In this document: piece after piece, positions 2,441-56,327 of the stretch
Position numbering within the stretch: the first letter of the stretch is position 1
Layout: each line of letters begins with the position of its first letter
Source: Jaenimonas drosophilae
Lineage: Eukaryota > Euglenozoa > Kinetoplastea > Trypanosomatida > Trypanosomatidae
Reading direction: 5' to 3'
Assembly: GCA_030849065.1 (NCBI GenBank)
Contig: JASAON010001660.1
Location: 186,001 to 250,000, forward strand
DNA length: 64,000 bases
Position numbers and translations under genes: made by a program
Notes under the pieces: model-generated
What the model saw: the letters and a program-made list of their open reading frames with translations, nothing else
Databases searched by the model: none
What the model was told of the DNA's origin: nothing

Positions 2441-2590
2441 GGCAGCACGGTTGTTGGATCACCATGCTCATTTGCTCCCTTCAGTCAACTGCTATGAGTA
2501 ACTCATGTGCAGTGAAAGGCGGGCAACTACCATCACCATCTCAGTTTCTGTGCAAGTACAGTGTGGGCTGTTATCTAATTCCCAATTCTA

Positions 2591-2626
2591 TCTCTCTGCT
2601 CCCTCCTTCTTCCTCTTGTACGATAG
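2591..2626 (+). promoter_or_regulatory. Inferred trans-splice acceptor for the CHHC zinc-finger gene
   Basis: Dense pyrimidine tract 2591-2619 followed by AG at 2625-2626, 26 nt before ATG 2652. Confidence 0.65.
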
Positions 2627-2651
2627 TTTGCTGAGGTGCGGTGAAAGTGCA

Positions 2652-3545
2652 ATGAGCTCCACGCCGTCAGCAAGTGTGGCCTTCGCCACAAAGATGCGAG
2701 CGCTTCTACACTCCCGCGCCGCTCAGCGACCGGTGGAGGAGGGCTTCGTGCGATGCCCACTAAACCCTGAGCACCACGTTCCCCGGGCCTCCATCGTTAG
2801 CCACATTCAGTTAGTACATCTGCAAGACTCTCTGGCCCTCGCGTCAGATGCGATGTACTCCAACGACACGGCCTCACGGCGGCACGAATACCTCGCAACA
2901 GGGCTCTACCACATGTTTGACTCGAGAAGCAGTCGAGGCAGCTGCTCCGACCGTGAGACCAGCCCCAGCTCAACCAGCACTTCTTCCTCACGTGCAGCAC
3001 AGCACCGCCGCCGCTCTAAACGCATACGCCAGCGAAGTACATCCACGGCATCTACCAGCTCTCTCAAGACCCCTGAACCACTGCCACACCCACCGGTTCT
3101 CCCTGACGTCATATTCACCGAAGAGCCATTTTTGCCTGTTGCTGTATGGGCATGCCCTCCACCCGCCATCCCGAACTTTTATGACTGCGTGCTGCCAGAT
3201 GCTGATCTGCATCAATCTAGTCCGCACGATACTCATCCCGAGATGCGATGGCAAAGTTGTACCATCGTCATCAACATGTCTCGTCGCCTTGGAGCTCCCG
3301 AAGTCTCATGCCAACAACCATCGAGTTCGTCCCCACATTTGCATGAAGACGAGCTCCACCAATTCCTGGATCTTTACTGCAACAGGGACGTGGCACCACA
3401 TATCGATGTGGTCGTCCTTCACAACCGAGCAGTTCTCCAGTTTCCAACACCTCATCATCGTGATGCACTCCTCCTCAAACTTCGATGTCAATCGCACCTC
3501 ACAACGCCACTCTTCAACCTACACATTTCTCACCCACAGACTTAG
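2652..3545 (+). CDS. CHHC-type zinc-finger protein (U11-48K/TRM13/GTSF-like finger)
   Basis: 297 aa from ATG 2652, just after a strong acceptor. Residues 35-56 begin CPLNPEH and give C35-x5-H41-x9-H51-x4-H56. The first part matches the CHHC finger 'C-P-x-[ND]-P-x-H-x-[VM]-P-x-x-x-[IL]-x-x-H' of U11-48K, TRM13 and gametocyte-specific factors, which binds RNA or tRNA. The last ligand differs: the family has H-x3-C, whereas here it is H-x4-H. The middle (about residues 95-140) is Ser/Arg/Thr-rich and low in complexity. The last third has acidic and hydrophobic blocks but no known domain. No methyltransferase (TRM13) domain is present, so a stand-alone RNA-binding or adaptor role is more likely. 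The partner RNA is unknown. Confidence 0.6.
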   Translation: MSSTPSASVAFATKMRALLHSRAAQRPVEEGFVRCPLNPEHHVPRASIVSHIQLVHLQDSLALASDAMYSNDTASRRHEYLATGLYHMFDSRSSRGSCSDRETSPSSTSTSSSRAAQHRRRSKRIRQRSTSTASTSSLKTPEPLPHPPVLPDVIFTEEPFLPVAVWACPPPAIPNFYDCVLPDADLHQSSPHDTHPEMRWQSCTIVINMSRRLGAPEVSCQQPSSSSPHLHEDELHQFLDLYCNRDVAPHIDVVVLHNRAVLQFPTPHHRDALLLKLRCQSHLTTPLFNLHISHPQT

Positions 3546-3694
3546 TGCGTCCAGCAACCAATCACACATCAACACATGATCTACGCTTCTTGGGCATACT
3601 CCACCGTCAATCCAAGTACACTTCACTATCCTTCAATCCCTCTTCCCTCATCTCCACTACACACATAGACGCACCACATCCAATCGTACCCCCT

Positions 3695-3800
3695 GGGCAA
3701 CAATGCTGTGCATGATGACGATCACAAGCTTAGGACACCTTTGGATGTAGCCTTGTGCTGCAATTGAAAAGCTAACCTTGCATATCGATTCGTACACTGA
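3695..3800 (+). repeat. Direct repeat copy 1 (106 bp)
   Basis: Identical to 3861-3966 except one base (T at 3708, C at 3874 by alignment register). The two copies are separated by 60 bp of unrelated pyrimidine-rich sequence. Confidence 0.95.
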
Positions 3801-3805
3801 CGCAC
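3708..3805 (+). ncRNA. Candidate box C/D snoRNA, copy 1
   Basis: Box C ATGATGA lies at 3712-3718 and box D CTGA at 3797-3800, an 89-nt span typical of C/D snoRNAs. A short terminal stem can form: GTGC just before box C pairs with GCAC just after box D. Inside, CTTAGGACACCT (3729-3740) is complementary over 12 nt to the highly conserved eukaryotic large-subunit rRNA segment AGGTGTCCTAAG (recalled from LSU domain V). The element directly before box D, ATTCGTAC (3788-3795), is complementary over 8 nt to the nearby LSU segment GTACGAAT. Any D' and C' boxes between the guides are degenerate. Tandem C/D snoRNAs in polycistronic spacers are known in trypanosomatids. A 2'-O-methylation guide is inferred, not shown. 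Confidence 0.72.
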
Positions 3806-3860
3806 GCACCACCCTCCTCCTATCATCTAGCTACTCACTGAGCCTTATCTCCTTCCCCTT

Positions 3861-3966
3861 GGGCAACAACGCTGTGCATGATGACGATCACAAGCTTAGG
3901 ACACCTTTGGATGTAGCCTTGTGCTGCAATTGAAAAGCTAACCTTGCATATCGATTCGTACACTGA
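3861..3966 (+). repeat. Direct repeat copy 2 (106 bp)
   Basis: Second copy of the 3695-3800 repeat, with 105 of 106 bases matching. It also contains the complete box C to box D interval. Confidence 0.95.
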
Positions 3967-3971
3967 GTCAC
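3874..3971 (+). ncRNA. Candidate box C/D snoRNA, copy 2
   Basis: Second copy: box C ATGATGA at 3878-3884, box D CTGA at 3963-3966, rRNA-complementary element CTTAGGACACCT at 3895-3906. The sequence after box D differs from copy 1 (GTCACAC), so the terminal stem is weaker (GTG with CAC). The internal guide elements are unchanged. Confidence 0.68.
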
Positions 3972-4189
3972 ACGTGTTTTTGTGAGTGAGACTGAGACTT
4001 ACAGCAGTGTTTCACTGTTGTCGCTTGTTTTTTTAATAATACTTGTACAGTGTGTGTGAGTAGTGTCTTGGGCACACTATGGTATTGTGGGTGGAAGAGG
4101 CTTGCTGTGCTTTGGAACTGCTGCTGCTCTTCTTGGTTCTTGTTGGGATAGGAGTACTAGCTACGACCTTTTATTAGGTGCCATTCAAA

Positions 4190-4219
4190 CTCTTTCTTTT
4201 TCTGGTGTATATTTTTCAG
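4190..4219 (+). promoter_or_regulatory. Inferred trans-splice acceptor for the kelch/BTB gene
   Basis: Pyrimidine-rich tract ending ATTTTTCAG with AG at 4218-4219, ten nt before ATG 4229. The frame is open upstream to 4178, but that codon lies before the acceptor. Confidence 0.72.
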
Positions 4220-4228
4220 GCGAGCAAC

Positions 4229-7200
4229 ATGCAAGCCCAACGTCGTTTTGCTCGTGAGGACGATATGACCGATGACATGGAAGCACTGCTGGCGGAACTC
4301 AACGGTGCCGGTGGTGAAGTGGATGTAGGTGCTGCACGCCCGTACAGCAAGCATGGTCGGGCGCGAGGTACTGTGGGCAGTGTGTCTGTCCTTGGTGAGC
4401 AGCAACGAGGTCTTGCGCGAGCCAAGTCTGACGTGTCAGGGCGTGGGTCGCGGCCTAATTCGGGCACCAGTGCAGCAACGACGGCTTTTTCAACCTACAA
4501 CGTTGGCCTGACGGAGAAGGAGGTGCAGAACACACGGCACCACGTAACTCCCCTCGGTGTACGGCTGCAGCCGCTTGGCGGGAGCTCCTCCCCCGGTGGG
4601 CAGCGATCTCCGGCGAAGGTTGCCGCGCTTCCTGCGCTGCGGAGTGGAGGGGATGAACCACTGCGCTTGGAGAGCAACGCGCCAATGGCGTTTAGATTTG
4701 CCGGGGCAAACGATTCTTCACCATCGGTGGAGGCCCCGACGTCAGCCGAAGTTGCCCCAGCGGAGCCACTTCTGGCACTGAAGAAGCCAAATCAGCCGAG
4801 CACCGCGGCTGTTTTGAATGACGTTGCGCAAGGGCCGCGTGAGGCCAACTTCCTGCCCATCATGTGCGCGCGCTATCTCCGCCCCTCCGGTCTTACCCCA
4901 CCAGCCCGCTGGGGCCACTCACTGACCTCCATGAGCGGCTCCGCGCTGCTGATGTTTGGTGGCATGGATGTCTCAGGAGATGAAACCAACGCCCTGATGG
5001 AGTTCAGCAGCAGCACCATCTCGTGGGACCCCGCCTTTGTGAGCCGTGGTGCGCCACCCACCGCACGCCACAGCCACGCCGCCTGTGCATGGGATGGTCG
5101 TTGGCTCGTCGTGCATGGCGGAACCTCTCGCAGTGGGATTGTGTTTGGGGATATCTTCATCTACGATACCTTGTCCTGTGAGTGGGAGTGTGTGTGGGCC
5201 TCGTCGGGCACTGCGCAGCGCAACGACCCCGGCCCGCGCTATGGCCACACAATTGTGATGCGCGATGATCGCCTGTACGTCTTTGGAGGTCGCGTTGTAA
5301 AATCTGCGACGTCTGGGAGCACCACCACGGCCCTTGCCTCGGCTGATGTGTACGTCTTCTCCATGAGCAGCCGGCGCTGGCGCAAGCGGATTCGTGCTGG
5401 AGGAAAGAAGACCAAGACGGAGGAGAACGGCGGCAAGGCCAAGACATCCACCACAGCACAGGAAGGGGCCTCCCCCGCCCCGCGCGCCTCCCACGCCGCC
5501 TGTTTGAAGGGTGATGTGATGTACATCAGCGGCGGTAGCAGTACAGGGGCCAGGGTGCTCTCCGACACGTGGAGTCTGCAGCTGAGCACCAACGAATGGA
5601 GGTGCCTGCACCCAGGAGAGGCAGCGGATGCGATTCCACGAGAGAGCCACGCCCTCTTCGTCTGTGGTGAGGCGTTGATGTGTGTGGGCGGATGCAGCAC
5701 CAGCATGTATAACGAACGTGTCTCGGGTAAGTTCACCAACTTCGTGGCGGTCCTGCCGCTCGTGGGGCAACCCTCGCCGTGTTGGATTCCTGTGGCAATG
5801 GGGAATGTGGCCATTGTGGCGCCAAACAAGAAGTCCTTTGGAGCTGCCTTCAGCGGAGGCTTCGTCTACGTCTTTGGCGGCATGTGCGGAGCTGAGCCCG
5901 CCACCAACACCATGGTCCGCTTCTTGGCTGCAGATGGCTACGTCTCAGAGATGGAGCAGAGCAGCACCGGCAGCAACGATGATGCACTTCGTGGAATGAT
6001 GCAGCAGCTGCGCGAGAGCAACCCGGTGGTTCCGGCAGATATGTTCGCCATCGCCGCCACGTGGGGAGGCGTCAACGACGAGACGGGGTGTTTCGTGGAT
6101 AAAGAACATGCTGCGGTGGGCTTTCACCGGCAGCTACTTGTGAAGCGCGCACCAGCGTTGTTGGAGGCTCTTCTTGCCTGCCGCTCAGAGCAACTCTTCC
6201 TGGGTGGGGCGGACACGATGAAGCATGCAAAGGGGGCAACGGATGGCGCGTCGAGCCAAGGTGGCGGCGTGCAGGTGTACTTCACCAACGGAACAAGCCG
6301 TGTGAAGGGTCTTCCAGAGCCCATCACCCCCGACGTCCTCAGCTGTTTGGCGGACTACATCTACTGGGGTGGGCTGCGCTCCAAGTACCGCATCCTGCTG
6401 GAGGAGGAGGAGGCAGCGAATGGGGAGGACGAGGAGGGAAGCCCCGCTGGCGCCAACGATGGGCAGCGTACCGCCGTTCTTGCCATGATGGAGAGCCTAA
6501 AGACCATCGCCAACAGCTACCAACTATCTCCCCTTGCGGCACTCTGCGATGCCCTTCTCACGCGAAGCCGGCGCCACCTTCAGCGTGCGCGGGAGGCCAG
6601 CGCGGAGTGCCTGCGCAAGGATCTCCTCTCCATGATGGAGAGTGGCACCGGTGCCACTCTCACGGTACTCTTCGTGGATCCCCACACCAAGAAACAAACA
6701 ACCTGTGCGGTGCACCCCTTTGTGGTGGCTAGTGCGAGCAGCTTCTTCTCCGATCTACTCCGCCCACTCTACACCGGCGCCAAGACCACCTTCCAGGTGG
6801 GTCCTGTTGCGGCCAAGGTGCAGGCCTCCACGGGCGCCTTGCCGCTGCAGTGTAGCACCTCCAAGCGGGCCGTCCTCGTTGGCCCCGTCTCCGTGCCAAC
6901 CCCAGCCGTTAAATCCATCCTGCGCTTTCTATACACACAATCCCTCACCGTACGTCGCGAACATGCCTTCGACACCATGTTGGGCGCCCATCAACTGGGA
7001 CTATCACAACTGCAGTCCTACTGTGAGGCCATCATTGCCCGTGAGGACGTCAACTATGATAGCTGCTGCTCCTTCTACTACTTGTCTCGGAAGTATGCGG
7101 CCTCGCTGCTCGAGGAGATGAGCCTGTTAACGGCAGTATCAGGCTTTTCCTCCGTGCACCAGAGCCCGGGCTATGCGTCGCTCTCGGACGCAGATAAAAA

Positions 7201-7321
7201 GAGTATCAGCGTCGTGGCGGAGGAGCTCGGCTCTAACTCATGGGTGCCGCCACCACAACCAAAGCATGAGCTAAAATCTGCTGCACAATACGAATCAAGG
7301 TGGAAGGGCTCCGCGTCGTAG
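4229..7321 (+). CDS. Kelch-repeat protein with two BTB regions (LZTR1-like)
   Basis: 1,030 aa. Residues 1-210 are low-complexity. Residues about 220-570 form a kelch beta-propeller: repeated blades with 'R-x-x-H/G-H-[ST]', a glycine pair (LLMFGG, LVVHGG, LYVFGG, VYVFGG) and a Trp/Glu before the next blade. Two BTB/POZ-like regions follow. One, at about 640-715, is interrupted by a charged insert. The other, at about 800-935, holds the typical HPFVVASASSFFSDLL helix and a 'LRFLYTQSL' turn, with a BACK-like C-terminal region. Kelch followed by two BTB domains is the LZTR1 arrangement, which acts as a substrate adaptor for CUL3 ubiquitin ligases; conventional KLHL proteins have BTB first. Whether this protein binds a cullin is not visible. 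An acidic Glu run lies near residue 725. Confidence 0.8.
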   Translation: MQAQRRFAREDDMTDDMEALLAELNGAGGEVDVGAARPYSKHGRARGTVGSVSVLGEQQRGLARAKSDVSGRGSRPNSGTSAATTAFSTYNVGLTEKEVQNTRHHVTPLGVRLQPLGGSSSPGGQRSPAKVAALPALRSGGDEPLRLESNAPMAFRFAGANDSSPSVEAPTSAEVAPAEPLLALKKPNQPSTAAVLNDVAQGPREANFLPIMCARYLRPSGLTPPARWGHSLTSMSGSALLMFGGMDVSGDETNALMEFSSSTISWDPAFVSRGAPPTARHSHAACAWDGRWLVVHGGTSRSGIVFGDIFIYDTLSCEWECVWASSGTAQRNDPGPRYGHTIVMRDDRLYVFGGRVVKSATSGSTTTALASADVYVFSMSSRRWRKRIRAGGKKTKTEENGGKAKTSTTAQEGASPAPRASHAACLKGDVMYISGGSSTGARVLSDTWSLQLSTNEWRCLHPGEAADAIPRESHALFVCGEALMCVGGCSTSMYNERVSGKFTNFVAVLPLVGQPSPCWIPVAMGNVAIVAPNKKSFGAAFSGGFVYVFGGMCGAEPATNTMVRFLAADGYVSEMEQSSTGSNDDALRGMMQQLRESNPVVPADMFAIAATWGGVNDETGCFVDKEHAAVGFHRQLLVKRAPALLEALLACRSEQLFLGGADTMKHAKGATDGASSQGGGVQVYFTNGTSRVKGLPEPITPDVLSCLADYIYWGGLRSKYRILLEEEEAANGEDEEGSPAGANDGQRTAVLAMMESLKTIANSYQLSPLAALCDALLTRSRRHLQRAREASAECLRKDLLSMMESGTGATLTVLFVDPHTKKQTTCAVHPFVVASASSFFSDLLRPLYTGAKTTFQVGPVAAKVQASTGALPLQCSTSKRAVLVGPVSVPTPAVKSILRFLYTQSLTVRREHAFDTMLGAHQLGLSQLQSYCEAIIAREDVNYDSCCSFYYLSRKYAASLLEEMSLLTAVSGFSSVHQSPGYASLSDADKKSISVVAEELGSNSWVPPPQPKHELKSAAQYESRWKGSAS

Positions 7322-25600: not shown

Positions 25601-28600
25601 ATGAGCTCTTCTTCCATGGATACTTCGTTGATTCGTCGGATTGCCGATGAGTTGCGTCAGACCAGCGAGGATGTGTGCCGCGCGCTGGACGCATCGCCCG
25701 AGGCGCAGGCGTTTCTCACGCAGCGTTGCGATGGCCCGGCAGCCTCGCCATCCACGGCTGAGGAACCCACGGCTAAAGTGGGCATACGGGGGCGGAAGTT
25801 TATTGTGTTGTACGTGCTCAGTGAAGATGGCGAAGATGGCGGCGGTCGGCCACTCATCTATGCCGATACATCTCTCGATCGAGTGCAGCCCTACTTCGCT
25901 GCATCCACCAACAACACGGGCCACCGCACCACCACCGCCCATCATCGCAGCCTTCGCGCATGCGTCTTCGTTCGGTGGCGCAACGATCTGATGAGCTTCT
26001 CCATCTCCTCCGTGGATGTGGCGCATCCTCTGGAGGATCTTCAGTTTACGCTGCACATGTACGAGCAGCTTCTGCGGCAAGAGTGGGAGCCCACGAGCCA
26101 AGTGGTCAGCCGCATGCAAGAACTGGGCGATGAGCTCGATGTTGTGCAGCACATTCCGCCCAAGGTGGATCTGCGTCGCTATATTTATCCCGATATTCTG
26201 CAGCTCTGCGAGGATTTTCCAGCCATGGAGGTTCATCAGCTGATGGAGCAGCTCGGCCATCTCGCCAAAGATAGCACCTACATGGAGGCGGTGCGCAAGT
26301 GCAGAAAGCCGTGCGTGTCGGTGCTGCGAGCCTCTCATGACATTGATCGTTCCGAGGTGGCCGAGACGGAGCTCATGCTGGAGGTGGAGCCACTGAAGCT
26401 GCGCAGGGTTGAGGAGGTTGGCAATCGCTTCCGCTCCGTTAGCGCATGGATTAAGGATGTGCAGGCGCAGCTGGAGAGCCGCGAGTGGATCCTCGCGAAC
26501 AAAATTGTGCTCGAGACAGATTTTCGCTCTGACTTCATTCACACTGGTGATAAGATGCTCAAGATCATCCGGTACGTGGAGAGCATCCCTGTGAAGGGCC
26601 TACGTACCGTCACAAGCTTGGCGGAGCTGGAGGTGTTGGCCAAGAACATTTTCACAGCCGTCGTGCATCCCCCGATGATCGCAAAGGATATAGGCCCCAT
26701 GGCTGTCATACACTCTGCCATCAAGCCGCCCTTGATGCGCGAGGTTCTCATGTGCTCAACCTCAGAAATTGTGGTTGTTTTCATGCGCATCACCGAAGGT
26801 CGGTGCGTGGAGCTGCTGGAGGCGCTGCACCCCGCCACCAACGCCGCGCCGCAACGCTCCGCCGCCGCATCCTACGACGCGGTGGTGACGGTGCTGGCCT
26901 TCTTATCGAGCTGCGTGGATTTTCTTCACGGGATGCGCGAGAACTACATGAAGCATCTTCTATCCAAGTCGGACATTCCCGATGTTTCCTGCCATCCTCT
27001 GCTTGAGGCGCTCTGTCAACGAAGCAATATGCTAGAGACGATGGTGGAGCGGCATTACCGCATCTTGGCACAGCTCGAGAATGCCTTCGCCGCCAAGATT
27101 GAACTGCCAAAGAAGGATGAGCTGCCAACGGAACGAGTGAAGAAGGCCAAGATGCCTACACGCGGAAGTGGCTTCCAGCATGAGGTGGATTTGGTGCGCG
27201 AGGAGTGCTCCTCCATCCTACACAGGTCGTGCGCTGCCCTAGTGAAGGCCATATGCTCGCCACCTGAGCATGTATCTGCCCCTTGCATCTCATCCTCTCG
27301 CAGGACGGTGTTGTGGCGCACCTATGCCGCTGCACAAGAATACGTGGATGCTTCCTGTGCCACCTACGCCAAGGGCATCGAGGAGGCTGACGAGTTTATA
27401 GTCCACCACTTGAAGAAGATTCTGGCAACGGAGCCCGGCCCATCTCCTGGCTCATTGGCCAACGCCTCTCACGGTGCGGAGCAGGTGATGCGGCTCTTCT
27501 TCATCTACTCCAGGTTTCGTTTCATGGATCTGCCAAACCTACGAGAGCTCATGACGTCCTTGGGCATCCCCGCAACAGAGGCCATCATTGATCGCATCAA
27601 CGCCGTCGTGAATGACTTCACCGAGGGCAAGCACCGCTCGCACGATATTCGCTATGCCGTGGAGGCGTACCGCGTATCGGCCTACGTTGCGCACATGCTT
27701 CGTGAGCATGGCCTCCTTCAGTCGCTGCGGCAGTGCCTCTTTTGGAGGGATTGCGTGATGGATATGGGCTGGCACAACCTGATGAGCCTGCGTCGCGCCA
27801 ACAACGTATGGAGGTTAGATGATAAGCTCATGGAGTACTTCCATCTCAGAGATACCCCGTTGGCAGAGCTGATGAATCACCCGCGGGATGTTGTCGGTAC
27901 CGTATTTGCGCTCTCCTACTTACACAGGCAGTACCCGGAGGAGCCGTGGCGTGCGGATGCCCACCTCCACATTGCGCAGCAGTACATCGCCAACTACGAT
28001 GGCATTCGCAGCCTCACCGACTACGCGGAAGAGTGCCTCACTGGCTTGGGTGTGTTTCAGCGTGCGCAGAGGGCGGAGAAGAACCAAAAGTTATCGGTTC
28101 AGCGCGTACATGAGTACATTCTGCGCTCACTCAGTGATTTAACCACCAAGTGGTGCATTCAGTCAAGCACACAACTGCGTGAGTGTGGCGCCATGGGAGG
28201 AAGCGGGGTGCTCTCCACCCCCGTCTTGAGGCTGCAGCCAAGGATTGGCAGCTCCGCACGTGGCGGTGAGGTAAGTGGCGCAACGGAGTTGGTGGTGGAG
28301 GTATCCTTTCCATGGCAGCTCGAGGCCATCTCCAATGATGTGCAGTACATGAGCAGCGTGTATACCTTCAAGAAGAAGGATGTTCTTGACGAGGATGTGG
28401 TGAGTACGTTGGCGCAGATCAACGAATCAGTCCGACAAAATGGAGGCAAGGCGCGCATCGCGCACACACTGCGCAAGTTGTTGGCCATTTACTACGCCAC
28501 CGTCGATGGCGAGGATGATGTGCTGGTTCTTCTCACCTCGGACGAGTACCGTCGTGCCAATCACATAATCTTGTCTGGCTGCAACATCCACTGGAATGAA

Positions 28601-31600
28601 GATACGCAGATCTTTCACTTCGCGGTACAGCTGGAGGAGAGCATTCGCCACCTTACCCACGCCGTGGCCATCATCCGCCAAAAAACAAGTGTTATATATC
28701 GCAAGCTGCAGGAGCTCAGTAGCCGCCCCTTTCATCCCGACGCGATTGCGTTGTGGGTCGGCCAAATTCACGCGATGGTTAGTGGGCTCGCTATGGATTC
28801 CCGCTCCGCCACCCGCTGGATGCGCCAGACGCAGCCTCTCCTCGATGCAGCGCTGATGCAGCAACTCAAGTATCTTCTTCATGGATGGACGATGGACTTC
28901 ATCTCTCTCCGCGGCGATCCGCGCTATCTTCAGCACACATCCACCGGAACGAGCCAATTTCATCTTCTCCCGCTGCACGTGCGCATGTGCTTGGTGTATC
29001 GCGAGGTTCAGCTGAAGCCCGCCGCGCCGGAGTGGCGGCGGCACTGGCTAAAACACCTCAACGCCTCGTTCTCTTGGCTACATGAGCAGCCACCGCTGGA
29101 GCTGGGGCAGGCGGCACAGGCCGCCATTCTCAGCAACGGCACAGCCGGCACCAGAGATGATGATGATGATGGCCACGGCGGCCACTACTACCTCCTCGAG
29201 CAACTCCCTCCAGAAGCTCTGGCGGAGCCGCTGCGTGCCATTGAGAGCTGCATCCAGGATGCGCAGGCGGTGGAGCAGCAGTGGCGCCAGAGCCAGCAGT
29301 TCCTGCACATGGATCCCTCCATTATGCAGCGCCGCTTCGGGCAAAATCTTCGTCAATGGTCGGATGCCCTCCAACTGATGCACCAGCTCATTCACCGCGT
29401 GATGGATGTTACGGAGCCCAACATCCTACTTGGTGGCATCGCCATCCTCGCCGAGGACGCTCAAGGAAGTCTGCGTGGCAAGCTTGATCAAGTGAGCAGC
29501 TCCATGCACGGCAAATTCAAGGATGTACTCGAGGCGCAGCTCGAGACCTCCCTCAAGCAGCTCCTCGCCGACAAATCCACGGCAGATGGCCTCAACGTTA
29601 TTGGTGATACCGCGGATGCGTGCAAATTCTTATGCATCGCCACGCGCCTCCGCAACAACCTCATCGCCAAGGAGGAGGAGATCATGCTCATGAGCAGCGC
29701 CGAGTCGAGCCTGCTCCAGCTCGGATATGTGTTTCCAGATAATTGGGTGCGTACGGCAACCTTGCGAGAGGAGTTTATGGCCTACAAGGATGCCATCGAT
29801 CGCAAATCCAAGGCGCTGCAGGTACGACGGCCCTACGTGGAGGAGAGCGCCAGAAAACGTGGCGAGGAGCTCCACGCCAAGGTTGCACACCTGCGGGAGA
29901 GGCTGCGCAAGGTTCATGGCAGCGGTGAAACACAGGCATCCGTGCATGGTGGTGAAGCCAGCGGTCGAGGCTCCGTCGTCGATCAGCAACAAATCATCTC
30001 CATCCACGATGAGGCCTGCACCGTGGATGAGGAGGCGAAGGAGGTGGTGGCCCTACAAGAGGCGCTGGATATGCAACGCTTTGATGCGTCTGAGGTGGAG
30101 GAGCTGAAACGCGATGCCTCTGACCTGCTCGAGGTCTGGGCTCACGTGGCCAATCTCACCTCCGCCCTGCACACGCTGGGGGCCACACCACTCTTCGAGG
30201 CGGTGCCGCGGCACGTGCAGGAGGAGCTCAAGCGGCTGGAAAAGATGGCGGAGGCTGCCCCAGAACCCATTCAGCTGAACCCCATCTTCGTGGATGCCGT
30301 GGCCAAGGTGAAGGCCGCCACGAGCTGCCGCCGCCTTCTTCAGGATCTTCGATCCGATGCGATGGCATCTCTCGAGCGCTCACGCCGGCACTGGGTGGCG
30401 CTGAAGCAGCAACTCCAATCCAAGTGGGTTCTGGAGGATCTCACGTTGCAGCACATCTGGGATTCCGACCCGACGGCACACGCCGCCATCTACGCCAGCA
30501 TTCTGGAGCAGGCGCATGGCGAGCACCGGCTGGAGGTGCAGCTGCAGGCCATCACCTCGTTTTGGTCAGCCTTCGAGTTCAGCACCACCGTGTATAAGCA
30601 GCGGGTGGCGCTCCTGCGTGGGTGGGATGTGGTGTTTGAGCGTCTGGAAGATGATCTCAGCACCTTCAGTGGCATGCGTGCGAGCCCGTTCTTCACGTCG
30701 CAGCAAGTCGTTGCCATGACGAATGATTCCGAGGCACAACTCAATCGTCTGCGGCAGGTGTTGGAGGTCTTGATGGAAACGCAAAAACGTTGGGTCTATC
30801 TCGATGGTGTCTTTGCCGGAAACCGCGAGATTCGCTCGCAACTTCCACGTGATGCCAGCCAGTTTGACCGAACCAGCATTGAGCTGGTGGGCCTGATGCC
30901 CCAGCTCCGCGCCGATGGCACACTTCCCGAGGTGAAGACGAATGCCTTCTTGGATGATCCAAAAATGCTCTCCACCCTGGAGCGGCTCGTGAATCAGCTC
31001 AACGGCGTGCAACGTGCGCTGACGAGCTACCTCGATACGCAGCGTCGTAAGTTTCCGCGCTTTTTCTTCGTTGGCGACGACGACCTGCTTGAGATCATGG
31101 GCAACAGCAGAGACCCGCACGTGATGGGGAGGCACCTCAAGAAGATGTTCTCAGCCCTCGCCAACTTCATGCTTCCGACGGAGGCAGTTGATGGGGCAGA
31201 CGTACAGATTCACGGCTTCAGCAGTGCCGACGGCGAGTGCGTGAGATTTTCTAACAACAAGGTTGTTTGGGTTGGCCAGCGGCCCATGTACGATTGGCTG
31301 AAGGAGGTGGAGCAGCTCATGGCCACCTCACTGCGCACCGAGACGCTCCGCGCCACCGAGGCACTGACGGCCAACAAGCGCGTCTCTCTCGATTGGCTTG
31401 GCACATTTCCGAGCCAAACGCTGGCGCTCGCACTGCAGTTATGGTGGGTGCGCCAACAAGAAGAGGCCTTTTCCGTGAAGACGAAGGATGCCATCTTCCA
31501 CGCACCGCGCATGAGCTTTGCCCAACGCGAGCGACTGCGAACGAGCTCGGGCGCCACCCCGCCCACCTCCGCGGTGATTGCGGCGATGGAGGAGGTTCTC

Positions 31601-34600
31601 ACCACCCTCGCCAGCAGCGTCTTGGATGCACGATTGGCCTCGCTGGTGCGGCACCGCTGCGAGCAGGCCATCACCGTGGCGGTGTACCAACGCGATTGCT
31701 CTCGTTGGCTCGTACGTGCTGCGGTGCAATCAAAGAACGACTTTGAGTGGGCCCGTGTGCTGCGTCTTTACACCACCACCACAACAACAACATCATCATC
31801 ATCATCATCATCATCATCAGCCGAGGATGCACTGGTGGAGTGCCGCATGGCGGATGCTACCGTGGTGCATGGCTTTGAATACATTGGTGGCTATGAGCGT
31901 CTCGTACAAACACCGCTCACCGACAAGTGCTACCTGACGTTGATGCAGGCGTTGCACGCACGCTTGGGTGGCTCCCCGGTGGGTCCGGCTGGCACCGGCA
32001 AGACGGAGACGGTGAAGGCGCTCGGCATGCAACTTGGCCGCCACGTTCTCATTTTTAATTGCGATGACACCTTTGACTTCCAGGCCGTGAGCCGCATCTT
32101 CCTCGGCCTGTGCCAAGTCGGTGCGTGGGGATGTTTCGATGAGTTTAACCGTCTTGAGGAGCGCATCCTCTCGGCTCTCTCACAGCAAATCCAAACCATC
32201 CAGGAATCCCTGCGCGGAGGATCAACGCAGGTGGAGCTCAGCCGCCAATCCGTACCTCTGCACACCAACGTTGCCGTCTTCATCACCATGAACCCAGGCT
32301 ACGCTGGCCGATCCAACCTGCCAAGCAACCTGAAGCAGCTCTTCCGCACCATCACCATGGCGGTGCCCGATCGCGCCATCATTGCCGAGGTTATGCTCTT
32401 CGCTCAGGGCTTTCATCGTGCGGAGGCGCTCTCCAAGAAGATGGTGCCGCTCTTCCGGTTGTGCGAGGATCAATTCTCACGTCAGGCGCACTACGATTTT
32501 GGTCTTCGTGCTCTGAAGTCGGTTCTCATCGCGGCTGGAGATCGCAAACGTGCGGCTGTGTCGGAGCTCCGCCAACAGACATGCACGAAGGAGGTGAATG
32601 CCGAGGTGGAGAGGGAGGCGGAGTGTACGTGGGTGCTTGAGAGCCTCATTGCAAACATTGCGCCGAAGCTCATCACGCACGATTTGGCCCTCTTTTATCC
32701 GCTGCTGCACGACTTCTTCCCCGATCGCGACCTCCCGACGATGGAGATGGCGGAGCTTCGTGCCGCCATCGCACACGTCTGCTCAACGAGCGGCCTCACC
32801 GCTGCCTCGGCCTGGGTGGAGAAGATTTGCCAGCTTAGCCACACCCGCGGCACCCGCCATGGCATCATGCTCGTCGGGCCGAGCGGAACGGGCAAGACGA
32901 TGGCGTGGCGTACTTTGATGGCGGCGATGGTGCGCGTGCACCCCTTCATGGAGGTGCAGGCCTTCGTTCTGGAGCCCAAGGTGCTCTCCAAGGCACACTT
33001 GTTTGGCAGCTTAGATATAACCACACGTGAGTGGCAAGACGGCGTCTTCACCGCCATTCTCCGACGCATCATTGTTGAGCAGGAAGCGATGAAGGCAGGC
33101 GCCAAGGAGGAAGTGGAGGCCTCTGCCGAAGACACCATCGTGTTGGAGAGCAGCAGTGGTGGGGCAGATGCACTGCGATCTGCCAACCACCTCGTGCCTA
33201 CGCTTGTGAAGGAGTACTGGATCATCTTTGATGGCGATGTTGATCCGGAGTGGGTCGAGAATCTGAACTCCGTCCTCGATGACAACAAGGTTCTGACGCT
33301 GCCCAATGGCGAACGCCTCGCGCTGCCACGCTCGGTGCGCATCTTCTTTGAGGTGCAAAATTTGCGCTACGCCACGCCCGCCACCGTCTCGCGATGCGGC
33401 ATGTTGTGGTTCAGTGAAGGCGTGGTGCCATTGCCGAGCATGCTATCCTATGCCTATCGGCAGATGGAGCGGAAGCCTGTGGCTGATCATCGTGGCCGCC
33501 ACTTGCCTTGGCACGTGGATGATGCCATGATTGGCAGCACCCAAACGAAGGGGTGGCGAAGTGGCCCTGCGGCCAATTCTGGTGTGGTGGTATCGTGCGC
33601 CTTCTCCAAGCCCTACAATCAGTACATCGTCTCGAGCACACTTCCCTTGCATGGGAGTGGTGCCCATGAGGCTGGTGAGTTGGCCATCACGCCAGAGATG
33701 ATGTCTGCCGATCTCCCGCGCGCCGATGGAGGTCTGGTGGCGTCGGGCAGCTATGCACTCGAGGGCCATCCCGATGCGCTGCGCCTCCAACGTGAAATGA
33801 TGAAGGAGTGGGATAAGGCATTTGAGCGCCAGGGCATCATTGCGCGCGGCATCCAAATCCTCGCGCGCCCATCCTACACCGCCGCATGCATCATGGAGTT
33901 CGGTGTGGGCCAGCAGCTGCAGAGCATTCTCTCCTTGTTGTGGGAAGGTATCTGGTCTTGCTTCCGTGCGGAACAGCAAGCCAAGACGCGGCACTCAGCC
34001 GCCACCCTCACCGCCGTGGCGCAACACGTGATGGAGTACGCCGTCTTCTGGGGCCTTGGCGCTCCAATGGGCCACGAGCATCGACGCCAGCTTGCCATGG
34101 ACCTACAACTTCAGCCCCACGTTGCCGGCAAGCCAGCCACGATGCTCGAGGTGGAGGTGAGCTACACCACAGGCCAGTGGAGCTTCTTGCGTGAGCGCCT
34201 CGAGACCTCCTCCATCACAGCTGAGCAAGTTGGCGCCAACGACACCGTCATTGGAACCGTGGATACGATGATTCACGAAGCACTCCTCTCGGCGTGGCTC
34301 AGCGCTGGCCGCTCCGCCATCCTCTGCGGCCCGCCCGGCTCCGGCAAGACGATGTCGGTGTCCGCCGTGCTGCACCACTCGCCCGCCTATGATGCGGTGT
34401 TTCTCAACTTCAGCAGCGGCACCACCGTTGAGATGGTGATCAAGGCACTCGAGCAGTACTGCAGCCTGCGCAACACCGCCAAGGGCCTCGTCCTCAGCCC
34501 CACCTCGGGCAAACGTTTGCTGCTCTTTTGCGATGAGATCAATCTCCCCGCGATGGACCGATATGGCACCCAGACGGTGTTGCAGCTCCTCCGCCAAATC

Positions 34601-37600
34601 ATTGAGCGCGGTGGCTTCTACCGCACCAAAGACAACGCGTGGGTGCAAACGGAGATGATTCAGGTGGTGGGCGCGTGCAATCCGCCAACCGATGCGGGTC
34701 GCGTGCCCATCTCCCTCCGCGTGTTGCGATGGGCTCCGGTCCTCTTCGTGGATTTTCCCACCGATGAGTCGCTGCACATCATTTATAGCACCTACTGCAG
34801 AGCGGTGCTGAGCTTCAACGAGAAACTGTGCAGGGAATCGGCGGACCCTCTCGCCTCAGCCATGGTTGCTATTTATCGTGCCTCACAAACACGTTTTACC
34901 CCACTGATTCAGCCACACTATTTGTACAGCCCACGTGAGCTCTCCCGGTGGTCCCGCGCGCTTCACGAGGCCATGATGAGTTGGGATGATGCAGAACGAA
35001 AATCGCTCGACGCCGCCGCACTTGTGCGCCTCGCCCTCCACGAAGGCCTCCGCGTCTTTTCAGATCGCCTCGTCTCGCACGAGGAGCGTGTGTGGGCAGA
35101 TGGGGTGATGGATGCTGCGTTTCGTGAGTATTTTCCAGCACTGGGCCCCCAGGTTTACGCCCGGCCGCTGCTCTACGCCTCGCTCCTCTCACCGGCCTAC
35201 CGCGATTGTGCTCGCGAGGACCTCCGACGTTTGCTCGAGAGCCGCCTCCCCAACTTTTGCGATGAGGAGGTCTCAACCCCGCTCGTTGTCTTTGATGCGA
35301 TGGTGGATCACGTCGTGCGCATCGACCGCGTACTCCGCCAGCCCCTCGGCCACGTGCTCCTCGCCGGCTCATCTGGCGTTGGCAAGACGGTGATGGCGAG
35401 GCTCGTGGCGTGGCTGAACGGCTTTTCTGTTTTTTGGTTAAAGGCACATCGCGATTATGATCTCGACGACTTCGCCGCCGACCTCCGCGGGCTTCTCCGC
35501 CGCTCCGGCTGCAAACGTGAGCGTATTTGCTTCGTCTTTGATGAATCCAACATCATCGAGCCCAGCTTTCTCGAGTACATGAATGCGCTCCTCGCGTCGG
35601 GTGAGGTGCCTGGCCTATTTGATGGTGAAGAGTGGGCGAAGCTCATGCTTGATGTGCGCGAGGCCATCACCGGTGTGCCACTGGCCAATGCCGGAACAGG
35701 AGGGGGAAGTGGCGGAGCTCCCGCCGCCTCTCCCACGAGCCAATCCATCGATCTCAGCAGTGATCATGACGTGTATCGCTGGTTTCTGCGCAACGTGCGT
35801 GAGTACCTCCACGTCGTCTTCACCATCAACCCCGCCTCGACGGAGTTCTCCTCGCGTGCCGTGGCCAGTCCTGCCCTCTTCAACCGATGCACCATTGATT
35901 GGTGTGGTGATTGGGATGAATCCACGTTGCGCCAGATTACACACCTCCTCACCCCGCACCTCGTCCTCCTCCCCAGCTGCCGTGAATTCGCCAGCGAGGA
36001 GGTGGCGCACGCCGCGGTGGAGCAAACCGTCGCCGCCATCCATATGAGCACCTTGCACATGAATGCCGACGTTCGAGCACGCTCGGCCAACGTTGGCACC
36101 TTCATCACCCCGCGGCACTTCAGCGATTGCGTGCATCATCTTCGCCAGCTCTACGAAGAGCGGCAGTCTGGGTCGGTGGAGCAGCTCCGCCATCTTAACA
36201 ATGGTCTCGCCAAGCTGGGAAGCACCGCGGCTGAGGTGGCGGCGCAGCAATCCTCGCTCACAGAGGCACGTGCCAGCATGGCAGAGCGCAGCGCTGCGGC
36301 GGAATCGATGCTCGAGCGCATCATCTCTGAGACGGACACCACCAAGAAGGAAAAGGCAGAGGCAGAAAACATGCGTGTGCAGCTCCAGGACGAGCAAGAG
36401 CGCATCGCCGTGGATTCGGCTGCGGTGCAGGCGGAGCTCGCGCAAGCCGAGCCCGCGCTGCGTGCCGCCGAGGCCGCTCTGAATACCGTCAAGCCAGAAT
36501 ATCTCCGTGAGATTCGTGCCTACACAACGCCACCACCCACGGTGAAGCGTGTGCTTGAATCTGTTGTGTTATTGATGGGGGAGAAGAACTGCGAGTGGGA
36601 TATTCTCAAGAGCCACATTCGTCGCGAAGACTTTCTCAGCAGCGTCAAGGCCTTCAAGCCAACATCCATCCATGAAAGCGCACGCGCCAAGGTGGCGGGA
36701 CTGTTGCAGGATGCCTCACTCACCGTAGAAACAGCCAACTTCGCTTCCAAGGCGGCGGGCCCTCTGCTGCAGTGGGTGCAGGCGCAGCTGAAGTTCTGTG
36801 CGGTGTTTCAGAGCGTCGCGCCGATGCGAGCCAAGAATGATCAGCTCGCGCGCGAGCACCACACCAAGGAGGAGCAGCTCCACGCCACGGAGAAGGAAAT
36901 TGGCGAGAAGGAGGCGTTTTTGCAGCAGCTCAAGGCAGAGTACCAAACTACAACGGAGGAGATCGCGGAGCTGAAGCATCGCATCACCGTCGTCTCTGGA
37001 CGATGTACGCGTGCCACAACCATCTTGACACAACTCCTCGACGAGCAGTCGCGATGGGAGTCTGAGATCGCATCCTTTGATGCAGACGTCTCAACGGCTG
37101 TTGGGGATTGCCTCGTGAGCGCCGCGTTTCTCGCCTACGCGGGCTTTTTCGATGAGCAAACGCGCCATGGCCGACTTATTCCACGTTGGCTCGAGTGCAT
37201 CCGCGCTGGTGGCATCACCCCTCCACGTCCATCCTTCACCGTCACTGACTTTCTCGCCCCACCTGCTCCACGACTACAATGGCAGCAGTGCGGGCTGCCC
37301 AAGGATCGCGTTTGCATCGAGAACGTAGCCATTCTGCGTCGCTGTACGCAGCGGTACACCTTCCTCGTTGATCCTGATGGCACCGCCGCCTCCTTCCTTC
37401 AGCGCTTCTACGCCGCGGAAAAAATATCGAAGGCCTCCTTCAGCCGGCCCGGATACCTCAAGCAGCTCGAGATGGCATGCCGCTTTGGCTATCCCATCAT
37501 CATGGAAGACGCAGAGCTCCTCGATCAGGCCCTCGCCCCGCTCCTGAACCGGGAGTTCCGCCACGTTGGCAGCCGCAGCATCGTGCGCATCGGTGCGCAT

Positions 37601-40600
37601 GAAATAGATTTGAGCAACACCTTCCGCCTCTTTCTCATCACGCGTCGCTCCACGTTTCAGCCCCCGCCCGACCTCGCCGGCCAAGTGTGCATCCTCAATT
37701 TTACGGTGACGATCTCGTCGTTGCAGTCGCAGTGTTTGCAGCGTGTGTTGCTGCACGAACGCCCCGACATTGATCTCCGCCGCACGCACCTCCTCAACCT
37801 CCAGGGCGCCTTTCACGTGAAGCTGCGCGCGCTGGAGCAGGACCTCCTCACCTCCATTGCCGAGTCGGAGGGGAGTTTGCTCGATAATGATCAGCTCATC
37901 CAAACGCTGACGAAGCTGAAGCATGATGCACATGCCATCCAACAAGATATCCAGCACAGCGATGAAAGTATGCGATCAATCTTGGTCGTGGAGGAGCGCT
38001 ATCGTCCTGTTGCATTTGCGGCATCGCACATCTTCTTCGCACTACGCCAACTCAGCGAGCTGAGCTGCTTCTATCACTTTAACGTGCGTTTTATGTTTGT
38101 TGCCCTCCGCGACGTGATGGAGATGCTACCACCCAAGACCATGTCAGCAGCATCGGCAGAGGTTCAGCCCGGTGGTGATGGAGATGGTATCACCTCAATG
38201 GCTGTCGTGGAGGAGGACCCAGCGGAGGTCGCGGTGGAGATGCAGCGGCTCACGCTCCTCTTCCGCGGGCTCTTTGCCCTCGTACACGGCCGAGTGATAC
38301 GTGGCGTGTTTCAACGCGATCATCTCGTTCTCGCCCTGCGTCTGGCGCAGCTGCGGAGCGCGACGTGTGAGGCCTGTGATGGCCTCCGCACCATTTGCCC
38401 CATCGCGAGCAGCGAGTGGGAGTGGCTCATCAGCGGTTTTTCTGCCGGTGGCGGCGTGTTGATGGATGATGCCACCTCCGAGCAAACCTCATCACTTCCA
38501 TCTGTGTTGAGCCACGCATCCTTCGCCCTGAGTGCGCAGAGCCGCACCGCCCTCACGGGGATGTTTGCCCGACCAGAGTACGCGGAGATTGTGGCATCCA
38601 TGAAGAACAAAGAACATGCCGCGATGTGGTCTGACCTCCTCCTCTCATCATCACCACTGGAAAAGATGCAGAAGCTCCCCGACACATGTTTTCCGCCACA
38701 TGCCACTCCATGTCGGCGGGAGTTCCTCCTTGTGGTGATGTTATACTTCGTTCGTCGCGATCTTTTTGTTGCCGCCGCATTCGCACTGCTCCATCGCTTC
38801 TTTGATGGGGATGTTGGTGCAGTGAACGAGGCGAACCCCACCTCCATGCCACCCTTCTTTGATGATGCCACGCAAGATCTCGAGCGCATCATGGCGGAAC
38901 TGAACTCAAGCACGCCGCTCATTATGATCTCTGAAGCAAACTACGACCCCTCCACACGCGTGGAGCAGCTCGCGCGCCACATTGGCTTTCAGCTCAACGT
39001 GGTGGCGATGGGAAGTGGCGAAAGCGTGCAAACAGCCGACGTCTTCCTGCAAGACGCGATGCGCAGCGGTGGCTGGGTGTTGCTCAAGAACGCCCACTTG
39101 GCTCGCGACTACGTCGAGAAGATGGAGAAGGCCATTCACTTCCATGAGCTCGAGGGCAGCCTACACCACCACTTCCGCTTCTTCATTAGCGCGGAGCGTG
39201 GCGCACACGATGCCACTTGTGTGCTGCCCATATCACTCTTGGAGATCTCTGTTGTGGTGGTGTATGAGATGCCACCCGGGATGCAGTCATCCCTGCTGCA
39301 GACCTACGCCGCCATGCCAACATCCAGCAACAACAACAGCAGCATGGATGCGGGGGTGTGCCTGCCTGGGAGCAGCCCGTGCCAGCGTTTGCTGCTCTCC
39401 GCCGCGTGGGCGCATGCTGCCATTGTAGAGCGGCTCACGTATGTGCCAATGGGCTGGGCGCAGATGTACGAATTCAGCGATACGGAGTTTTCACGTGTGG
39501 CACAGGCGGTGTTGGCGTGGTCTTCGTCGAAGTGGCTTCAATCATCATCATCTACGGCACCAGAGGTGGCGTGGGATGCGTTGCGGGCCATCATCGCCAC
39601 CACCATTTACGGCGGCAAAGTGAGCAACGACTACGATCAACGTGTGCTGGACCTCCTCTGCGAGGACCTCCTCTCGCCGGAGCTCTTCTCCGACGCCTTC
39701 TCCTTCCTTCGAGATGCAAGCACCACAACCACAACAAGTATCGCGGCACTTCCAACCACCGCGAGTGGCGATCGTGCGGCATATCTTCAGTGGCTCCGAC
39801 GTCTTCCCGACGGCAGCAGCGATCCCCAATGGATTGGCCTCCCCAGCGGTGTTTCGCGGATGGTACATGCGCGACGCGCTCTTGATTCGGTTGAGCGTCT
39901 CGCAATGATCCAATCGTCGCTCACGGAGTGTTCGTGGACCTCATCGACGAAGCACAACGACGATCGCCACAACTATGATGATGATGATGATGATGCTGGA
40001 TCGGCGCGTTGGCTCATTGCCATCCGCGAGCTCTGTGCCGCCTGGGGCCCGCTCCTCCGCTCCCAACAAACCTCGCTGCTGCAGAACGCCTTCGTTGCGC
40101 AGGTGCAAGCTCTGCGCGAGGCGGAGCACACCGGTGAGTTGATGGGTGCCGCACCGGCCGATCATCATCACCGTGAGGTGGGTGGGGCTGGTGAGCCCGT
40201 CGCGCCACTCGTCCTTGCACTTCAGCGCGAAGTGGTGGTGCTGCTGAATCTGCTCGAGCATGTTGTGAAGGATGTGGCTCTCCTCCAAGATATCAGCAGC
40301 AGCACACGCAAACCAACGGCGGCGAGCCGCGCTCTCGTCAACGACGTCTCGACGGGCCGTGTTCCATCAACGTGGGCCGCACTCATCCCATCTGAGCAGT
40401 GCGGCTCCTCCACACGCACGCGCATGCTGGTTGGGTCGTGGCTCGCGGAGGTACGCCAGCGCAGCACGCATCTCCGCCAGCTCGCCGAGGCAGCAGAGGC
40501 CGGTGTGCTGCACAACACCGCCATTAATCTCGGCCTCCTCTTCGCTCCCGGCGCATATTTAACGGCATCGAAGCAACAACACGCGCGGCAGTCGCGGCTG

Positions 40601-41002
40601 TCGCTGGAGTCGTTGTGCCCCACCATTTCACTCACCAGCGCCTCGCACCAACACGCCGCAACAACAACGGGTTGTGGTGGCTCGCTGCTCCTGACCGGCA
40701 TCGTGTTGTTCGGGGCACGTCTCTCCGCCAAGGGCGATGTGTGCGAGCTCATCGCGCCAACGGGGTCTGGCGAGCCGGAGGCACTGAGCTCGACGGTTGG
40801 TTTGCGGCTGACGTGGGAGCAGAAGTCTGCGAATCATGGCAGCGCAACGAACACGGCGCATGTGTTGGAGGTGCCGCTCTACGCCACAAGTGATCGTGAA
40901 GTGCTTCTTGAGCGCGTAGAGCTCCCGGTGGCGGTGGAGGCCACGAAGAGAACGTGGTACGTACGTGGTGTGTGCCTCGCTGCATGGGCAGCAGAGGAGT
41001 AG
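25601..41002 (+). CDS. DYNC1H1: Cytoplasmic dynein-1 heavy chain
   Basis: 5,133 aa in one exon; animal orthologues are about 4,650 aa. The tail occupies roughly residues 1-1500 and the linker ends near 2090. The ring has four P-loops: GPAGTGKT (AAA1, 2128), GPSGTGKT (AAA2, 2426), GPPGSGKT (AAA3, 2910) and GSSGVGKT (AAA4, 3256). AAA1 reads [10 protein letters not shown] and then [20 protein letters not shown], and the next block [15 protein letters not shown]. These are the dynein-1 forms, not the '[23 protein letters not shown]' form of dynein-2 or axonemal chains. AAA2 has [20 protein letters not shown]. The stalk follows AAA4 (about 3530-3850) with the microtubule-binding tip near 3630-3745. 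AAA5, AAA6 and a C-terminal domain complete the motor. It drives minus-end transport of vesicles and organelles and mitotic functions. Low-complexity inserts (Thr/Ser run at 2057-2073, Asp run near 4793) account for part of the extra length. Confidence 0.95.
   Translation: [5133 protein letters not shown]
31770..31820 (+). repeat. In-frame ACC/ACA/TCA repeats encoding Thr7-Ser10 before AAA1
   Basis: A trinucleotide array within the dynein gene encodes a run of threonines and then serines between the linker and the first AAA module, about 55 residues before the AAA1 P-loop. Confidence 0.9.
39975..39997 (+). repeat. In-frame (GAT)n encoding an Asp run in dynein
   Basis: Seven GAT codons give a poly-aspartate loop in the C-terminal region of the dynein heavy chain. 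Confidence 0.9.
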
Positions 41003-55082: not shown

Positions 55083-55835
55083 GGCCCACATCATCCAGAT
55101 ACCTACACCGTCTTTTTTTTTTCCTCTCATTGTGTGGCAGCGGTGCCCTGTTGTGTTACCTTGTGTTATTGGTGCCGCTTCCCACAGTTGTTCTTTCTCT
55201 CTTCCACCCTACCCCTCCTCACTCCCTTCCAGACGGAGGATGCCCATTTCTGGGTCAGCCTACATGTACCCAAGACACCCCCGCGCATCCTCTCATTCCA
55301 CTTGTGTGGCGTCGCAGTGTAAGCTGCGGAGAAAACGGTTGTTTGTGGTGGTCGATGTGCGGTTTCGAAGTACTTTTGGGGGATACGTTCAGCACTGACA
55401 TCGCCATGCGTTTGTAACGTAAGTTGCCCAGCTGGCTTTTTGCAGATGCGCCTAGTATGCTGGGTCTCGTTTTCCATGAATCTGCGTATTGTTGCGCTAT
55501 GTACTTCAGTTACCATGTTCTTTTTTTCTCTATTTTATATGTTGTGTTTTCTTTCTTTTTCTTTTCGGTTCCTATGTGGGTGGATTCCCGCCCATTCAGC
55601 CGTCGCCGAGCATCTCTTCCGCTGACTTTACCATCTTTTTTCTCTGTCCCCCCCCCCTACAGCTGCACATGCTCATCTGCAGCAGCTTCACGCTCACCCA
55701 GAGCCAATTCTCGCTCTCGACTGACGTCTTCGTCCTGTTTCCGCCAACCAATCACTCCCTTCCATAGCATGACTCCACGACCATCCTCCCAACTCTTCCA
55801 TTGTTTTTACACCAACAAGCAAATCACAGTTTAGG
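55083..55835. other. Long T- and C-rich spacer
   Basis: 753 bp, rich in pyrimidine tracts: T8 near 55113, CTCTTCC near 55195, TTTTTTTCT near 55520, TTTCTTTTTC near 55553 and C8-9 at about 55649-55657. The last is followed by TACAG, the most likely acceptor (AG 55661-55662). Short ORFs here (up to 136 codons) are Phe/Ser/Pro-rich by composition and are not taken as genes. The repeated acceptor-like tracts suggest alternative trans-splicing. Confidence 0.65.
55628..55662 (+). promoter_or_regulatory. Inferred trans-splice acceptor for the last + strand gene
   Basis: TTTACCATCTTTTTTCTCTG, a C run, then TACAG with AG at 55661-55662; about 173 nt to ATG 55836. Confidence 0.7.
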
Positions 55836-56327
55836 ATGCTTGGCGCAAGTCGTCTTCTTCTGAACACCTTCTTGACGCGGTCGGTGGCGTCGACCCCGCT
55901 CACAGTGATCCGCAGCGGGCCTAAGTACTGGTCTGAGCCCGAACGCCTGGTGAAGCACAAACTTATGTACTTCACCATGGGCATTGACCAACTTCCTCTC
56001 CGTCGCACCGCCGTCATCCAGAATGAGCTCCGCCGAGTGCACATGTGCAAGCCCGCGCCGAGGGTAGGAGATACGACCGGTTACAAGCGCCTTCGCTCCT
56101 CCCAGCTCACCACGTGGAACCGCCGCATTCAATACCAGGAGTTCCACCTTCAGCATCTCTTTACGCGACACATGTGGGGTCTCCTGCGCAAGTACCCCGG
56201 CAACACCGTCAAGATCCAGGGCAAGGCGGATGACGGCTACGTTGGATACGACTCCGTTCCCTTCCATCGTTATAACCGCAGCGCTCTGCCCTTCCCCGCC
56301 CGCGAGATTTACGAGCGTAGGAAGTAA
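55836..56327 (+). CDS. Small basic protein, probably mitochondrial
   Basis: 163 aa. The N terminus MLGASRLLLNTFLTRSVAST has Arg, Ser and hydrophobics but no acid, a good mitochondrial presequence. The mature part is basic and aromatic (KYWSEPERLVKHKLMYF, RRVHMCKPAPRVGD, RHMWGLLRKYPGN, FHRYNRSALPFPAREIYERRK), without membrane helices. This composition is common among kinetoplastid mitoribosomal proteins, and a ribosomal or assembly role is a reasonable guess, but no family was recognised. It is the last gene of the + strand unit; its stop codon lies 282 bp from the stop of the convergent gene. Confidence 0.7.
   Translation: MLGASRLLLNTFLTRSVASTPLTVIRSGPKYWSEPERLVKHKLMYFTMGIDQLPLRRTAVIQNELRRVHMCKPAPRVGDTTGYKRLRSSQLTTWNRRIQYQEFHLQHLFTRHMWGLLRKYPGNTVKIQGKADDGYVGYDSVPFHRYNRSALPFPAREIYERRK

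Follow-up and report, generated by a model that had tools for sequence, protein, structure and literature searches.

Two tandem copies of a probable box C/D snoRNA with a predicted large-subunit rRNA guide in the trypanosomatid Jaenimonas drosophilae

SNORD58 (U58; Rfam RF00151) is the described snoRNA most like the element presented here. In published fragments of human SNORD58A, SNORD58B and SNORD58C, box C precedes the guide letters seen in J. drosophilae (excerpts of PMC6052916, PMC9149858 and PMC5493846), and PMC5493846 labels those letters "box C, guide sequence 1" (excerpt). The D' guide of Arabidopsis SnoR10 has U2651 as its assigned target; blocking of SnoR10.1 lowered canonical and non-canonical targets, G2652 included, which its authors take to mean that a non-canonical rule selects G2652 (PMC8053127, excerpt). 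The excerpted table of PMC11542601 places Arabidopsis Um2651/Gm2652 beside human Um4227 and Gm4228 and holds no yeast entry for them. For trypanosomatids, 79 C/D snoRNA genes are given in T. brucei and 80 in L. major; snoRNA genes of the group lie mostly in clusters with polycistronic Pol II transcription, and clustered and independent snoRNAs all come from trans-spliced, polyadenylated precursors (PMC6562600, excerpt). Singletons occur in T. brucei as well, as does a snoRNA that overlaps an annotated ORF (PMC3091756, excerpt). Here, we report a computational analysis of a duplicated element of J. drosophilae that we read as a trypanosomatid box C/D snoRNA (probability, about 0.93) and that, judging from its letters, very probably guides the LSU site of SNORD58.

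The window (the whole stretch of DNA analysed, 64,000 nt of contig JASAON010001660.1) holds the element in a 683-nt spacer (3546 to 4228) flanked by two protein genes, both on the + strand. The features are as follows, with those of copies 1 and 2 in order of position.

2505 to 3545, + strand: upstream gene for a CHHC zinc-finger protein (PF05253 match)
3694 to 3800, + strand: probable snoRNA copy 1, the stretch common to copy 2 with one mismatch, T3704 (copy alignment)
3708 to 3711, + strand: terminal stem, 5' side, copy 1; GTGC pairs with GCAC at 3802 to 3805 (sequence; 5-bp run)
3712 to 3718, + strand: box C, ATGATGA, copy 1 (sequence)
3729 to 3740, + strand: antisense element CTTAGGACACCT, copy 1, complement of conserved LSU AGGTGTCCTAAG (sequence and published 28S primers)
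3742 to 3745, + strand: proposed D' box, TGGA, copy 1 (inferred from sequence; same letters in the Rfam SNORD58 consensus)
3797 to 3800, + strand: box D, CTGA, copy 1, where copy identity stops (sequence and copy comparison)
3802 to 3805, + strand: terminal stem, 3' side, copy 1, GCAC (sequence)
3860 to 3966, + strand: probable snoRNA copy 2, the stretch common to copy 1 (copy alignment)
3873 to 3876, + strand: terminal stem, 5' side, copy 2; TGTG pairs with CACA at 3969 to 3972 (sequence; 4-bp run)
3878 to 3884, + strand: box C, ATGATGA, copy 2 (sequence)
3895 to 3906, + strand: antisense element CTTAGGACACCT, copy 2 (sequence)
3908 to 3911, + strand: proposed D' box, TGGA, copy 2 (inferred; Rfam SNORD58 consensus)
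3963 to 3966, + strand: box D, CTGA, copy 2 (sequence)
3969 to 3972, + strand: terminal stem, 3' side, copy 2, CACA; flank partly unlike copy 1, pairing preserved (sequence)
4229 to 7321, + strand: downstream gene for a Kelch/BTB protein (homologues in Leishmania and Trypanosoma)

The CHHC zinc finger of the upstream protein (PF05253, 22.9 bits; cutoff, 21.1) is of the U11-48K type; U12-type introns are not a known trait of the host group. Named homologues of the downstream Kelch protein occur in Leishmania, Leptomonas and Trypanosoma (41 to 46% identity), along with further homologues of up to 51% identity over partial length; a search for the Kelch protein in viral contigs gave two stretches fitting the pattern and no relatives. 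Host group, same-strand protein-gene setting and C/D anatomy are as in known trypanosomatid C/D snoRNA genes, whereas here two copies of one snoRNA stand 59 nt apart. The original prediction had called a tandem snoRNA in such a spacer an unusual mixed unit; that view is not supported, because polycistronic, trans-spliced precursors are usual in trypanosomatids (PMC6562600, excerpt) and singletons and an ORF overlap are reported in T. brucei (PMC3091756, excerpt). The spacer (3546 to 4228) showed no further recognisable snoRNA in searches without a dedicated H/ACA tool. Elsewhere in the window, 25601 to 41002 is one open frame of 5,133 amino acids, and at 55100 to 56600 long frames switch from mainly the + strand (a ChaC-like gene, PF04752) to the − strand (GTPase and WD40 genes), in what looks like a convergent strand-switch region.

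The repeat pair spans 3684 to 3805 and 3850 to 3971 (122 nt, 95% identical, spacing of 166). Within it, the two 106-bp direct repeats with one mismatch that had been claimed were recovered at 3695 to 3800 and 3861 to 3966 (mismatch, T3704/C3870), with a 96-nt core (3705 to 3800) fully identical between copies and 59 nt (3801 to 3859) separating the two shared stretches. By 10-nt block, the copies agree at 9/10 positions in blocks 3690 and 3700 and 10/10 across 3710 to 3799, then at 5/10 in block 3800 and 1 to 4/10 in nine blocks further out on both sides. Identity begins 18 nt upstream of box C and runs to the last letter of box D. Although partly different between the copies, each 3' flank pairs with its 5' flank. 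These boundaries, together with the kept flank pairing, therefore indicate a conserved unit of approximately a stem-to-stem RNA and not a longer spacer repeat. The 18 nt before box C (3694 to 3711 and 3860 to 3877, with GGGCAACAA) are kept bar one letter, beyond the terminal stem. A short protein-coding repeat, which one + frame that stays open from copy 1 into copy 2 for approximately 55 codons might suggest, has next to no probability, as stops fall within a copy in all three + frames of 3684 to 3975; + strand coding of the repeat was rejected on this ground.

Each copy has a perfect box C (consensus, RUGAUGA) close to one end and a perfect box D (CUGA) close to the other, as expected of a box C/D snoRNA (consensus from PMC11542601, excerpt). 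Of the prediction that ATGATGA and CTGA lie 89 nt apart in each copy, the boxes stand, and the distance needs qualifying: 89 nt runs from the start of C to the end of D, and 78 nt lie between the boxes in both copies. The flanking stem that had been predicted is also present, as runs of 5 bp (copy 1) and 4 bp (copy 2) when offsets of at most 2 nt are tolerated, the terminal stems being set off from the boxes by 1 to 2 nt and not directly abutting them. The 12-letter antisense element stands one letter from the proposed D' UGGA, the class having an antisense element of 10 to 21 nt upstream of D or D', and UGGA differs from CUGA at 2 of 4 letters. Fold energy was not better than that of shuffles (z scores, −0.08, 0.59 and 0.41).

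Boxes and stem were counted with a C/D descriptor (RTGATGA…CTGA, 40 to 110 nt between boxes; stem of at least 4 bp). Among 2,000 dinucleotide shuffles of the spacer (+ strand), 68 contained a C…D pair and 9 a pair with a stem, versus three pairs, two with a stem, on the + strand of the real spacer. The whole window has six pairs on the + strand, where the two with a stem are the repeat copies, and 15 on the − strand, where the two with a stem both use one C box (26498, reverse complement). Boxes plus stem are thus not sufficient as proof. One C/D-like pair with a 6-bp flanking stem lies on the − strand at 37399 to 37503 (26498 to 26602 on the reverse complement), antisense within the 5,133-amino-acid frame, and is most likely due to chance. 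The shuffle counts, like the Rfam scores below cutoff, would suit a duplicated spacer repeat with boxes by chance and no RNA function, but the 12-letter LSU antisense is found nowhere else in the 18.8-Mb assembly, 18 letters are shared with SNORD58, and copy identity stops exactly at box D; we regard such a repeat as very improbable.

The snoRNA reading gains from the antisense element itself. That the internal 12-mer is the reverse complement of a conserved LSU segment, as originally stated, was confirmed with published 28S primers, the comparison being with these and not with the host's own rRNA: its complement is carried by GCAGGTGTCCTAAGGYRAGCTC (PMC4860332, excerpt) and by CTGAGCTCGCCTTAGGACACCT (PMC4166464, excerpt). 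By rough estimate, 0.03 complements of 12 letters would be expected between the whole RNA and 6,000 nt of rRNA. CTTAGGACACCT occurs twice in the window (mean of 0.01 per shuffle; 0 of 100 shuffles with two or more) and, in the 18.79-Mb assembly, twice forward and never in reverse, both times at the repeat pair; as a control, CTTAGGACACCT read backwards gave 1 and 5 matches (6 in total) in the same assembly. The guide-target duplex (12 bp, −21.4 kcal/mol) was equalled by none of 1,000 element shuffles, although the closest came near it at −20.6.

Rfam was searched next (SNORD58 gathering score, 42 bits). On 701 bases and at a permissive threshold, SNORD58 matched the copies at 24.2 and 22.8 bits (E values, 0.011 and 0.028), the third and last match being a chance-like lncRNA (9.4 bits). 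On the whole window, the SNORD58 E values were 1 (best of eight matches) and 2.5, with two microRNA families close to its scores at 23.7 and 23.6 bits, and no Rfam family in the window was at or above its cutoff (SNORD58, 24.2 and 22.8 versus 42 bits). As the scores are well below gathering, the case rests on match location, not on score. In both copies the match follows a perfect box C, lies on the strand of the neighbouring genes and has UGGA in register with the guide. The stretch CUUAGGACACCUUUGGAU, i.e., the antisense element plus the D'-like UGGA, is identical to the SNORD58 consensus at 18/18 letters in both copies; the rough chance of an 18-mer common with any of approximately 700 snoRNA families (an assumed number) is 5e-5. 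The UUGGAU after the guide does not continue the rRNA pairing, because 28S primers read GCAGGTGTCC there and LSU upstream of the site reads GCAGG (PMC4860332, excerpt). Its agreement with SNORD58 adds to the rRNA complementarity and is, going by the letters, agreement in the D' region, not in the guide.

The likeness to SNORD58 (RF00151) comprises a box C near the 5' end and then CUUAGGACACCUUUGGAU letter for letter. The SNORD58 model is 65 nt long versus 89 nt from C to D here, the 3' half of the element is unlike SNORD58, and the copies lie in an intergenic spacer, whereas vertebrate snoRNAs are mostly intronic (PMC6562600, excerpt). In the covariance model alignment, box C is out of register and the copy 1 match stops at 3759, before box D. 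Box C is separated from the guide by 10 nt (3719 to 3728) versus 4 nt in the human SNORD58A and SNORD58C fragments (excerpts); this spacing and the end of the copy 1 match at 3759 argue against close SNORD58 homology. Arabidopsis SnoR10 (25S Um2651, Gm2652), compared by target only and from excerpts, likewise addresses the equivalent tandem site through its D' guide.

Counting upstream from D' UGGA (3742 to 3745), position five falls on A3737, the partner of the U of AGGUGUCC, and position six on C3736, the partner of the G that follows. The published site numbers are inferred to denote the UG of the 12-mer, its only UG. Guidance of a single residue, either U (D'+5 with box UGGA) or G (D'+5 with box UUGG) and not both in tandem, is an alternative that we hold possible but doubtful. 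TTGGA fits both box readings, and the two-residue behaviour of the guide is what is reported for Arabidopsis (PMC8053127, excerpt), but both residues are listed as marked in humans and plants (PMC11542601, excerpted table).

A long segment runs from the D' region to box D (3747 to 3796 and 3913 to 3962), in which a small hairpin, TGTAGC…GCTGCA, is possible in the fold. It contains CTGCAATTGA, which presumably complements trypanosomatid 5.8S rRNA. A C/D snoRNA acting mainly in rRNA processing or folding, or through the region adjacent to box D or extra pairing, with LSU methylation secondary, would draw on what we take to be a 10-letter complement to trypanosomatid 5.8S rRNA in the middle of the RNA and on a presumed LSU complement of 8 letters beside box D. 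The 78 nt between boxes are also long for one guide, with 3747 to 3796 lying beyond the guide and D' region, and at least 18 trypanosomatid snoRNAs take part in rRNA processing (excerpts of PMC6562600; see also PMC6411936). Against this role, which we judge unlikely to be the main one, the sole antisense match backed by published text is the LSU one (excerpts), matches of 8 to 10 letters are by estimate of chance length over all rRNA, and the 5.8S stretch has no good D' box after it.

The host's own rRNA was sought in the assembly (18.79 Mb, 370 contigs). No rRNA was found there with exact patterns, namely AGGTGTCCTAAGGCGAGC and AGGTGTCCTAAGG, AGTACGAGAGGAAC (sarcin-ricin loop) and AAGTCGTAACAAGGTA (SSU 3' end). 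The Rfam 5.8S family gave no match among the 39 of 635 first-look candidates that were scored (control positive in 9 of 14 named genomes), nor did a 389-nt piece of human 28S, run without a positive control. The searches came back empty, but the patterns had to match exactly; the absence of rDNA from the assembly is therefore probable and not certain.

Among viral contigs, the 18-mer had no matches, an LSU 14-mer had 12 (assumed to be chance) and a presumed trypanosomatid 5.8S pattern had none; a 20-mer had no matches among genome contigs. A literature search for a trypanosome U58 returned Arabidopsis work only, the likeliest T. brucei and L. major sources being outside its reach, and the main text of PMC6182160 mentions neither SNORD58 nor the site number. 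The snoRNA has likely already been named in T. brucei or L. major.

A box C/D snoRNA with an LSU guide is thus supported by the anatomy, the copy boundaries and the sub-gathering SNORD58 alignment. Under this reading, two tandem copies of a snoRNA of approximately 90 to 105 nt, lying between same-strand protein genes, would be transcribed and cut from a polycistronic precursor, and each RNA would be bound by Snu13, Nop56, Nop58 and fibrillarin. Provided that the target is present in the host's own rRNA, the D' antisense element CUUAGGACACCU would pair with LSU rRNA AGGUGUCCUAAG and direct 2'-O-methylation within AGGUGUCC, on its U, on the G that follows or on both. The methylated site would be equivalent to human Um4227/Gm4228 and Arabidopsis Um2651/Gm2652 if the numbers are matched correctly.

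Both the kind of gene and its place are ordinary, though the likeness between organisms so far apart is neat. For annotation, the locus holds two probable snoRNA genes missed by the Rfam cutoff. True homology of the element to SNORD58/SnoR10, odd D' box and tandem Um-Gm target included, is a tentative proposal that we hold with reserve. It would mean that the guide predates the split of Discoba from the animal and plant lineages, with a loss in yeast. Retention of the non-canonical UGGA D' box would in that case be explained by its placing of both residues for methylation. If so, J. drosophilae would supply a trypanosomatid case of a conserved LSU methylation guide, and a non-consensus D' motif common to very distant eukaryotes would bear on the way in which a single guide can mark two adjacent residues.
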